Assembly (NCBI GenBank): GCA_030600655.1
Contig: JAUVLP010000012.1
Location: 1 to 35,237, forward strand
DNA length: 35,237 nt
Reading direction: 5' to 3'
Source of the DNA: Candidatus Eiseniibacteriota bacterium
GTDB lineage: Bacteria; Joyebacterota; Joyebacteria; Joyebacterales; Joyebacteraceae
Within the stretch, counting starts at the first letter, position 1. Each line of letters opens with the position of its first letter. Position numbers and translations under genes: made by a program. This document shows positions 2,269 to 5,586 of this stretch, piece after piece. A model generated the notes under the pieces. It was not told the origin of the DNA and did no database searches. It was given only the letters and a program-made list of their open reading frames with translations.

Positions 2269-3804
2269 CTAGCCACTCGCGACGGAGAGCACCTCGTCTA
2301 TCGTCGTCAAGCCTTCGCGGACCTTCTCCATGCCGTTCACAAGAAGCGGCTTCATTCCTTCGGCAAGTGCCATGTCTCTCACGGGTTCACCCACATTCCC
2401 TGCCAGAACAAGTTCTCTGATGGCGCGTGTCACGGAAAACAGCTCATAGAGAGCCATTCTTCCCTTCCACCCTGTACCGGAGCATTTGGAACAACCAGCG
2501 CCTCGTTTGAAGACTGTGTCGGTGGCCTCCGGCAGCACGTCTCGGAATCTCTCGAGAAGCAGCGGTTCCAGATCGTATTCCTCAATGCAGTTCGCGCAGA
2601 TCGTTCTGACAAGTCGCTGCGCGATGACCAGGTTCAGGGATGTGCAGATCAAGTACGGTTCGGCTCCCATGTTGAGGAGTCGATCTATCGAAGAGGTGGC
2701 ATCGTTCGTGTGTAGAGTGCTGAACACCAGATGACCCGTCTGCGCAGCCTTGATGGCTATCGAAGCCGTCTCGAGGTCGCGGATCTCACCTACGAGGATT
2801 ACATCCGGATCCTGACGAAGAAACGACCTTAGAGCTGCGGCAAAATCCAGCCCGATCCCCGGCTTCGCCTGGACCTGATTGACTCCCTTGAGCTCATACT
2901 CGACAGGATCCTCTACGGTCATGATGTTCTTGTCAGGCGAGTTGATGTGTGAGAGCGCCGAGTAGAGTGTCGTCGTCTTGCCGCTTCCCGTTGGGCCGGT
3001 CAACAGAACCATTCCGTGTGGCGCGCTGATTGCGCTCTTTATGAGGTCAAGTGATGCGCCATCGAATCCGAGATCGCTCAGATCCGTCTTTAGATTTGTC
3101 CTGTCCAGGATCCGCATAACGACCTTCTCACCGTGTATCGTGGGGATCATGGATATGCGAATATCGACCTCTCGGCCCATTATTCTCACCCTGCAGCTAC
3201 CGTCCTGCGGAAGCCTGCGTTCAGCGATATTGAGCCCGGAGAGGATCTTGATTCTGGAAGTGATCGCCCACTGCATCTTCTTCGGAGGCGGCAGTATCTC
3301 ACGAAGCACACCGTCGACACGGAGCCGCACAGCAATGTCTTTGTCACGCGGCTCAATGTGGATGTCACTAGCTCCCTCCTGAATCGCCTGAAGCAGGATC
3401 AGATTGACAAGCCTGATAACTGGAGCATCGTTCGGCTCAATCGAGAGCTGCTCTGCATCTCCGCTGCCGACTGTGCCGACGTCGACCTCAACCTCAACGA
3501 TGCTCTGAATCGATTTCTCAATGTCAATCTCATCGCCGTAGAATTTCTCGATCGCGGCTTGGATCAAATCGGGATCAGCCTTGACTGGGCGGACATCATA
3601 TCCGGTGTTCGCAGCGACGGTGTCGGTAGCTATGACGTCCAGTGGATCATCCATAGCAACCAGAAGACCGCCGTCCTCTCGCGCCACGGCGATGAGGTGG
3701 AAGCGCCTTGCCATCTCCCGCGGAACGAGCTGGGTCACATGCGAGTCAACCTCGAAGGTCGCGAGATCCAGCTGGGGCCGTGTCTGTGATTCTGCATACG
3801 TCAC
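2269..3804 (-). CDS. pilB: PilB/GspE-family type IV pilus assembly ATPase with a short N-terminus
   Basis: Extension ATPase of the type IV pilus (GspE/PilB family; 511 residues, where PilB is usually 560-570). Part of the MshEN/T2SSE N domain is present (LVPREMARRFHLIAV, about 26-40). The ATPase core follows: Walker A GPTGSGKT (270-277), Asp box VEDPVEYE (about 297-304), Walker B DPDVILVGEIRD (332-343) and His box TGHLVFSTLHTND (356-368). A zinc site of paired cysteines lies at C403/C406 and C438/C441. The start is a GTG at 3804 with AGGGA just upstream and an in-frame stop a few codons before it, so the missing 50-60 N-terminal residues are not simply a mis-chosen start. A consensus sigma-54 promoter lies about 63 bp upstream. 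Confidence 0.93.
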   Translation of the reverse strand: MTYAESQTRPQLDLATFEVDSHVTQLVPREMARRFHLIAVAREDGGLLVAMDDPLDVIATDTVAANTGYDVRPVKADPDLIQAAIEKFYGDEIDIEKSIQSIVEVEVDVGTVGSGDAEQLSIEPNDAPVIRLVNLILLQAIQEGASDIHIEPRDKDIAVRLRVDGVLREILPPPKKMQWAITSRIKILSGLNIAERRLPQDGSCRVRIMGREVDIRISMIPTIHGEKVVMRILDRTNLKTDLSDLGFDGASLDLIKSAISAPHGMVLLTGPTGSGKTTTLYSALSHINSPDKNIMTVEDPVEYELKGVNQVQAKPGIGLDFAAALRSFLRQDPDVILVGEIRDLETASIAIKAAQTGHLVFSTLHTNDATSSIDRLLNMGAEPYLICTSLNLVIAQRLVRTICANCIEEYDLEPLLLERFRDVLPEATDTVFKRGAGCSKCSGTGWKGRMALYELFSVTRAIRELVLAGNVGEPVRDMALAEGMKPLLVNGMEKVREGLTTIDEVLSVASG

Positions 3805-3866
3805 TAGAAAGTCCCTTCAATCCACCCTGACATATGGCCAAATGAGAGCCTGCAGTATCCAATGGC

Positions 3867-3882
3867 TGCAAGGCTCGTGCCA
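3867..3882 (-). promoter_or_regulatory. sigma-54 (RpoN) -24/-12 promoter of pilB-pilT-pilC
   Basis: Read on the minus strand the site is TGGCACGAGCCTTGCA. It fits the RpoN consensus TGGCACG-N4-TTGCW at every defined base, with the invariant GG and GC at the canonical spacing. It lies in the 192-bp gap upstream of pilB and points towards it. The start of transcription would be near 3855, giving a leader of about 50 nt. It implies control by a sigma-54 activator not present in this window. Confidence 0.8.
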
Positions 3883-3996
3883 GTCCTTCTTGACTATCTG
3901 ACAATATGGTGACCAAGTGTAAGCACTTGCGTGCCTGCACGTTAGAACCTGTCCGGAATCCCGTAGGCGGCCTCCACGCTACAATATTCATGAGGC

Positions 3997-5103
3997 CTAT
4001 TCGCCCTGGGAATGAAGCTGTTTCGCATCATGCAAGGGCACCGAGCCGAAGATCGGATACGGCACGTGTTCACTGCTCTCACGCTTGTCTGTGAAACTCA
4101 GAAAAGCCTCAACTATGACCGGGTCGAATTGCGTTCCTGCACCATCCTTAAAGATCTGAATCGCCTCTTCCGAGGTCATTGGCTCTCTGTATGGACGCTT
4201 CGATGTGAGTGCGTCATACGCGTCCGCCACGGACAGGATTCTCGCACCAAGCGGAATGTCCGGACCTGCGAGTCCGTCCGGGTAGCCGCTGCCGTCGAAC
4301 CGTTCGTGATGATGTCTCACCATTTTGATAACGTCCCTGAGTTCATCAATCGGATCGAGGATCCTTGCAGCAAGAACCGGGTGTTCCTTAACGGATTCCC
4401 ACTCCATCGCATCGAGTTTCCCAGGCTTGTTCAGCACGCTCTCTTTCACGCCGATCTTGCCGATGTCATGAAGGAACCCCGCAATCCAGATGCTCTGTAT
4501 CTCGGCTTCGGAAAGGGACAAGTACCTCGCGATGCGGACGGACTCCTCCGCCACCCTGGCCGAATGGCCCTGCGTGTACTCATCCTTGGCCTCCAGCGCC
4601 TGTGCAAGAGCCTTAATGCTCCCTATGAACAGACTTCTCAGATTGTCGTTGGCGCTGTTGAGTTGCTTCGTCCGCTCGTGCACCATGGATTCCAGGTTCC
4701 GTTGATACTCGCGGTTCTGAGCGACCAGACGCTTCTTCTCAACAGCCCTCTCTACCGTCAGTGTCAGCATATCCAGGTTGAGAGGTTTCGAGAGATGATC
4801 GTGGGCGCCGAGCTTCATGGCTTCCACAGCGGCAGCAAGATCCGGCGCTCCGGTCATGATTATGACGGCGACGTCCTCATCAGTCAGTCTGATGCGGCGG
4901 AGCATCTCGATGCCGCTCATGCCCGGCATGTTGACGTCGGAGAGAATCCCGTCGTACGCACACAGGGACAGCATGCTCAGAGCCGTTTCCGCATCCTGGG
5001 CGAGATCGCACTCGTACCCATCGTCGGTCAGCTTGAGCTTCACCAGTTCCCTGATGCTCGGCTCGTCATCCACAATGAGGATCTTGCCCTTCGCGTCAGC
5101 CAA
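3997..5103 (-). CDS. Response regulator with receiver and HD-GYP domains (probable cyclic-di-GMP phosphodiesterase, RpfG-like)
   Basis: Two-domain signalling protein. From a TTG at 5103 (product MADAKGKILIVDDE...) it has 368 residues. The receiver domain covers about 5-120, with acidic DDE near 12-14, phospho-acceptor Asp56 in ILSDVNMPG and Lys106 in LSKPLNLD. A coiled-coil linker (about 120-160) leads to the HD-GYP domain with GFLHDIGK (HD at 212-213) and HHERFDGSGYPDG (265-277), the residues that bind the metal centre and define GYP. These domains are known to hydrolyse cyclic-di-GMP. The open frame extends to a GTG at 5148 and an ATG at 5136, but those residues are low-complexity and lack a good ribosome-binding site. 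It stands alone behind pilB, so a role in switching motility is plausible but inferred. Confidence 0.9.
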   Translation of the reverse strand: MADAKGKILIVDDEPSIRELVKLKLTDDGYECDLAQDAETALSMLSLCAYDGILSDVNMPGMSGIEMLRRIRLTDEDVAVIIMTGAPDLAAAVEAMKLGAHDHLSKPLNLDMLTLTVERAVEKKRLVAQNREYQRNLESMVHERTKQLNSANDNLRSLFIGSIKALAQALEAKDEYTQGHSARVAEESVRIARYLSLSEAEIQSIWIAGFLHDIGKIGVKESVLNKPGKLDAMEWESVKEHPVLAARILDPIDELRDVIKMVRHHHERFDGSGYPDGLAGPDIPLGARILSVADAYDALTSKRPYREPMTSEEAIQIFKDGAGTQFDPVIVEAFLSFTDKRESSEHVPYPIFGSVPLHDAKQLHSQGE

Positions 5104-5236
5104 ACCTCGTCCCCCAGCTCTTGCCGCACCAATCATGCCGCGCAGCACACAGCGTCCAGCGCACCTACTGATGCCTGTCCGTCACAGCACGCCCACTCAC
5201 ACAAGACAAGCGCGCTCCTCAACTGTGCTGCAACAA

Positions 5237-5252
5237 AGCAAGGACCGTACCA
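5237..5252 (-). promoter_or_regulatory. Probable sigma-54 promoter of the HD-GYP regulator
   Basis: The minus strand reads TGGTACGGTCCTTGCT, one base away from TGGCACG-N4-TTGCW (T for C in the -24 box), with GG and GC correctly spaced. It lies about 85-130 bp upstream of the possible starts of the receiver/HD-GYP gene and points towards it. It is the second site of this class within 1.4 kb. Confidence 0.6.
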
Positions 5253-5586
5253 GTGAAAGAGTGGCTACCGACCGCTAATGCCTATGGCTGGGCGCGACCG
5301 CACTGTGCGACCGCTATACCGGCACGAGCTGACTGTGCAGATACTCGAATCGCCTTAAGAGCGTGTCGAAAATTGGAGCAGGTGAGAGATCAAATGGTGG
5401 GGTGTTCAGTGATTGAACAGAAGGAGGCATTCAAATGAGTGCAAACGGCAAGGAACACCCCATACGGGGTGTTCAACATTTGGACGGAGATACTGCCGCT
5501 CCCGGGGAAACGCATAACCTGACTGTTGCAGAGAACAGCCCGGGCTTCGCAGGAGCGGAGAACCGGCCTTCGCCGGCGCGGACATG
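5253..5586. other. Gene-free regulatory region with palindromes and a repeated decamer
   Basis: No confident gene lies between the HD-GYP regulator and the small gene ending at 5587. It contains TGTTCA-N5-TGAACA at 5403-5419, a 9-bp inverted repeat GAACACCCC-ATAC-GGGGTGTTC at 5453-5474, and the decamer GGGGTGTTCA at both 5399-5408 and 5466-5475. These lie about 150-240 bp upstream of the sigma-54-like site at 5237-5252, the usual distance for activator binding. Two short plus-strand frames (5253-5438 and 5435-5650) overlap by ATGA; the second has AAGGAGG before its ATG. Neither product looks like a known protein. A small GC hairpin at 5563-5576 could end the gene at 5587. Confidence 0.5.

Follow-up and report, generated by a model that had tools for sequence, protein, structure and literature searches.

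A sigma-54 (RpoN) promoter is predicted at the head of a type IV pilus gene cluster in this genome, immediately upstream of pilB, and we put the probability that the 16-mer TGGCACGAGCCTTGCA is a genuine RpoN-dependent promoter element of that cluster at roughly 90%. The element occupies positions 3867–3882 of the minus strand in the window, which is the entire contig of 35,237 nucleotides (C39). As the preliminary description had claimed, it has no mismatch to TGGCACG-N4-TTGCW at any defined RpoN consensus position, and it carries the GG-N10-GC arrangement of a sigma-54 promoter at -24/-12 within the broader consensus TGGCAYR-N4-TTGCW. The GTG start codon of pilB (3804) lies 78 nt downstream of its first base, and by the -24/-12 convention transcription would begin near 3856 on the minus strand, in line with the earlier estimate of about 3855. 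It is one of two perfect TGGYACR-N4-TTGCW elements in the window, a point on which the earlier account needs correcting; the second lies at 5237–5252 on the same strand and is considered below. A sequence scan upstream of pilB found no sigma-70-like promoter, and we rejected a promoter of that class there.

Conservation of the -24/-12 element

Taken alone, the sequence match is weak evidence, since pattern searches of the 2.6 Mb genome give 9 matches to TGGYACR-N4-TTGCW and 6 to a reversed control pattern; TGGCATG-N4-TTGCW gives 4 further matches and its reversed control 1. Counts so little above the control are what might be expected if TGGCACGAGCCTTGCA were a chance consensus match in non-coding DNA. 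Against this, 11 of the 13 genomic sites lie in gene-free DNA and are oriented toward a nearby gene start, and such upstream DNA makes up 4.3% of strand positions as judged by a simple gene caller trained on the window (binomial tail approximately 7e-14). We also compared the pilB promoter among relatives. Searches with PilB recovered a further 19 genomes from the family (Candidatus Eisenbacteria/Effluviviaceae), making 20 with the source genome; upstream sequence was available for 19 of these, the source genome included, and they span 8 genera with PilB proteins that are 70–91% identical. All 19 have TGGCAYR-N4-TTGCW 63–97 nt before pilB, and no such site was found upstream of PilB homologues from other families. 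Between genera, identity is 95% over the 12 core positions of the site, 71% over its 4-nt spacer and only 28–31%, approximately random, in its flanks. A chance match, which would have to recur in the same place in all 19 genomes while its flanks were randomised, is thus extremely improbable, and we rejected it on the strength of this conservation. Position and conservation together are, to judge from these alignments, strong evidence for the element, with conservation the decisive part, and the pattern indicates that the pilB site is under strong selection.

Pilus genes downstream of the promoter

The identities first given to the genes behind the promoter hold when they are compared with protein family profiles. 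The pilB gene (2269–3804, minus strand), for the pilus extension ATPase, matches Pfam T2SSE at 447 bits together with MshEN, and the best NCBIfam model for its product is PilB TIGR02538, with a score below that model's cut-off. Regulation of PilB by c-di-GMP by way of MshEN was considered and set aside. Next on the same strand are pilT (1141–2259; NCBIfam TIGR01420 at 456 bits, cut-off 319), for the retraction ATPase, and pilC (1–1086; Pfam T2SSF), for the platform protein, within which the contig breaks. A second contig, C33, opens with the C-terminal end of PilC, about 24 nt being missing between the two contigs, and continues with two pilin genes, pilM, pilN, pilO and pilP (these last three assigned by gene position), the secretin gene pilQ and the prepilin peptidase gene pilD. 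A relative in which this region is unbroken (L063) has the same gene order through pilM, N and O. Because C33 carries PilC on into pilins of the same cluster, the pilB promoter probably heads the pilin genes too, and with them the whole pilus cluster, presumably through one transcript that reaches the pilins. An RpoN promoter directly before a pilin gene was considered and rejected, since C33, which carries the pilins, has no strict RpoN site and none is kept before those of the relatives. The proposal that RpoN governs the motor genes is well supported, and its corollary, that it governs the motor operon rather than the pilins, is not supported, as the pilins lie downstream in the same cluster.

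The reach of the transcript could be shorter, with the promoter driving only pilB-pilT-pilC while the pilins and pilMNOPQ are read from a separate sigma-70 promoter, so that the motor level would be independent of pilin. We consider this unlikely. It would accommodate the lack of an RpoN consensus at the pilins, and the gap between the two pilin genes, about 150–230 bp among the genomes and about 230 bp in L063, may hold another promoter; but the upstream gaps in L063 are short (about 10 nt from pilB to pilT, 55 nt from pilT to pilC and 39 nt from pilC to the first pilin), which favours one transcript extending at least into the first pilin gene. A further point on the side of a motor-only unit comes from genus g4, in which pilB and pilT are farther apart and pilT itself has an RpoN promoter in non-coding DNA, complete with the upstream element and TAAC box described below and a -24/-12 element. 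Such a copy at pilT would allow the extension and retraction motors to be regulated separately. The g4 genomes also have a GC-rich, hairpin-like sequence between pilB and pilT (L066 6388–6813, with equivalents in L067, L069, L071 and L077); within the pilT promoter it separates the candidate enhancer from the RpoN site, and it resembles a pilB terminator.

Candidate enhancer and activator

RpoN polymerase depends on an enhancer-bound activator, and a candidate upstream activator site (UAS), TGCATGATGCGA, is present at 4023–4034 (minus strand), within the 3' end of the coding sequence of the HD-GYP gene upstream of pilB. In the family alignment the motif TGCANGATGCGA occurs in 19 of 19 pilB promoters, at 118–121, 130 or 151–152 nt upstream of the TGG. 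These offset classes differ by approximately one and three helical turns, as might be expected of an activator that acts by looping, though few independent events underlie them. Between TGCANGATGCGA and the -24/-12 element lies a second box, TAAC-N18-TTA, at 3920–3944 (minus strand) in the window, 62 nt upstream of the -24 element (51 or 52 nt in most relatives). Its strict form is found in 15 of 19 pilB promoters and in 6 of 6 pilT promoters, and it may be the site of a second activator or of an accessory protein.

Some of this conservation has to be read with the overlapping gene in mind. At pilB the UAS is in phase with the HD-GYP reading frame, where it encodes L[HQ]DA[KR] or VQDAK, so that its conservation at this position may in part reflect the protein sequence; the pilT copies are non-coding and hence the only ones free of such constraint. 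The TAA of the TAAC box doubles as the HD-GYP stop codon in most relatives. A composite search of the 20 genomes for the UAS followed after 102–132 nt by the -24/-12 element, a range that leaves out most of the source genus because of its longer spacing, gave 24 matches, 22 of them at pilB or pilT, and the reversed control gave 1. Of the other two, one is on a second, near-identical contig of genome G011 and one is off target. The remaining RpoN sites of the source genome have neither the UAS nor the TAAC box. Two more exact UAS copies occur in that genome, one within rpoN and the other within a coding sequence of contig C121; the latter is taken as chance because no RpoN site is near it, and both were rejected as activator sites.

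The sigma factor and enhancer-binding activators, which the preliminary description had named as prerequisites, are encoded. An rpoN gene was found in 20 of 20 family genomes, and the RpoN of the source genome is complete, with all three Pfam domains (AID, CBD and DBD). This genome also encodes approximately 10 enhancer-binding proteins. One of them, on contig C63, is a PilR-type regulator with a receiver, an AAA+ domain, the GSFTGA motif and a Fis-type HTH, and it follows a kinase with the six-transmembrane (six-TM) PilS domain, the adjoining arrangement by which a PilS-PilR regulon is recognised. The PilS-type six-TM kinase is present in 18 of the 20 family genomes (13 of 13 good ones), and in 18 loci a PilR receiver lies directly behind it. 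By analogy, this conserved pair makes PilR the leading candidate, and we think it probable that PilR is the activator that binds TGCANGATGCGA.

The assignment rests on family analogy, through the six-TM PilS domain, since the PilR gene lies apart from the pil cluster and is not the only activator gene in the genome. Both of these features would suit a real RpoN promoter that answers to some other activator, for example of the PAS, TPR or TPR-GAF type, or to several. Such an arrangement is a substantial but lesser possibility, given that a six-TM kinase with an adjoining NtrC-type regulator, the classic pair for pilus genes, is kept through the family. The mechanism that we favour remains one in which an NtrC-type activator, most likely the PilR encoded on C63 beside PilS, would bind TGCANGATGCGA approximately 140–175 bp upstream of the start, loop over and use ATP to open the RpoN polymerase complex; the polymerase would then start near 3856 on the minus strand and read pilB-pilT-pilC, followed by the pilins, pilMNOPQ and pilD. 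Both the role of TGCANGATGCGA as enhancer of the pilB promoter and transcription from that promoter are predicted here from DNA sequence.

Some of the other enhancer-binding proteins are very large. Two of them, 1561 and 1621 aa long (L105 1–4686 and L106 935–5800), are TPR-GAF-Sigma54_activat fusions, the shorter one also weakly matching a protein kinase; a third, of the TPR-Sigma54_activat type, has 1032 aa (L102 3497–6595).

Other RpoN sites and comparison with known systems

The gene upstream of pilB (3997–5148, minus strand) encodes a response regulator with an HD-GYP domain, of the c-di-GMP phosphodiesterase type (Pfam Response_reg and HD_5), and it is the upstream neighbour of pilB in those relatives whose flank was read. 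The second perfect element of the window, TGGTACGGTCCTTGCT at 5237–5252 (minus strand), is its predicted promoter. Of 17 loci scanned, 16 have such a GG-N10-GC site in front of the HD-GYP gene, the exception being L049, where none was found, and the site is kept through the family as a TGG[AT]AC-type site without the upstream element of the pilB type. The same sigma factor would thus link the pilus genes with a neighbouring gene of the c-di-GMP phosphodiesterase type. Further upstream, the gene-free stretch at 5380–5500 contains a repeated GGGGTGTTCA motif in direct and inverted orientation.

Among the matches elsewhere in the genome is a conserved site at a second PilB/PilC/pilin cluster (contig C128, 9959–9974, equivalent to L095 3960–3975), 71–73 nt before the first gene (DUF4900); it recurs in 4 genomes of its genus and also in several other genera. 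Sites seen in the source genome only precede genes for a FIST protein (followed by a kinase), a GGDEF response regulator, a GAF kinase, a HAMP protein, DUF3467 and others. The phylum description calls the cells flagellated (PMC11323493), and a genome-wide search of the source genome found no flagellin, on which ground a flagellar RpoN regulon was rejected. With separate promoters for the pilB cluster, the HD-GYP gene, the second pilus-like machine and, in g4, pilT, RpoN might be imagined as the family's master switch for surface filaments, with extension and retraction motors that could be set independently; we regard this as a doubtful generalisation.

Control of pilA by PilR and RpoN is classic. 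It has been described in Pseudomonas aeruginosa, Geobacter sulfurreducens and Xylella fastidiosa, where PilS-PilR and RpoN control pilA (PMC6058289, PMC2725144, PMC3224663). The cluster studied here resembles those systems in its RpoN -24/-12 promoter, in the six-TM PilS and NtrC-type PilR that the genome encodes, and in having a type IV pilus as target. It differs in that their mapped promoter precedes the pilin gene, whereas the promoter predicted here precedes pilB, the first gene of the cluster; in addition, pilSR is unlinked here, and the candidate UAS TGCANGATGCGA lies inside the upstream coding sequence. Since the pilin genes lack an RpoN consensus, the layout does depart from the classic pilA promoter, and to that extent the suggestion of a different design was apt; action of RpoN and PilR on pilus genes other than pilin, however, had already been described. 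In Xanthomonas oryzae pv. oryzae, RpoN2 and PilRX act on both pilAX and pilCX (PMC8657755), a likeness in a different phylum, but in the present cluster a single predicted promoter precedes pilB-T-C and the other genes. In Azoarcus BH72 the pilAB operon likewise has an RpoN -24/-12 promoter, with a mapped start and PilR dependence (PMC3262810); that operon begins with the pilin gene pilA and the present one with the extension motor gene. The pilB gene of P. aeruginosa is reported to be sigma-70 dependent, though its expression is lower when pilR is mutated (PMC6058289). A survey of sigma-54 regulons published in 2025 lists PilA among the pilus genes that are enriched, mainly in beta- and gamma-Proteobacteria, with no mention of pilB (PMC12316311), and neither pili nor sigma factors are discussed in the description of Candidatus Effluviviacota (PMC11323493). 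The literature that we found on this lineage is thus silent on pilus control, for which we offer a well-bounded and testable predicted promoter with a conserved candidate enhancer. What appears to be new, relative to these systems, is the head-of-cluster RpoN promoter before pilB, the candidate enhancer sequence, the extra copy at pilT in g4 and the lineage itself, by which a known type of pilus control would be extended to a family of uncultured seep bacteria and to the head of a whole pilus cluster.
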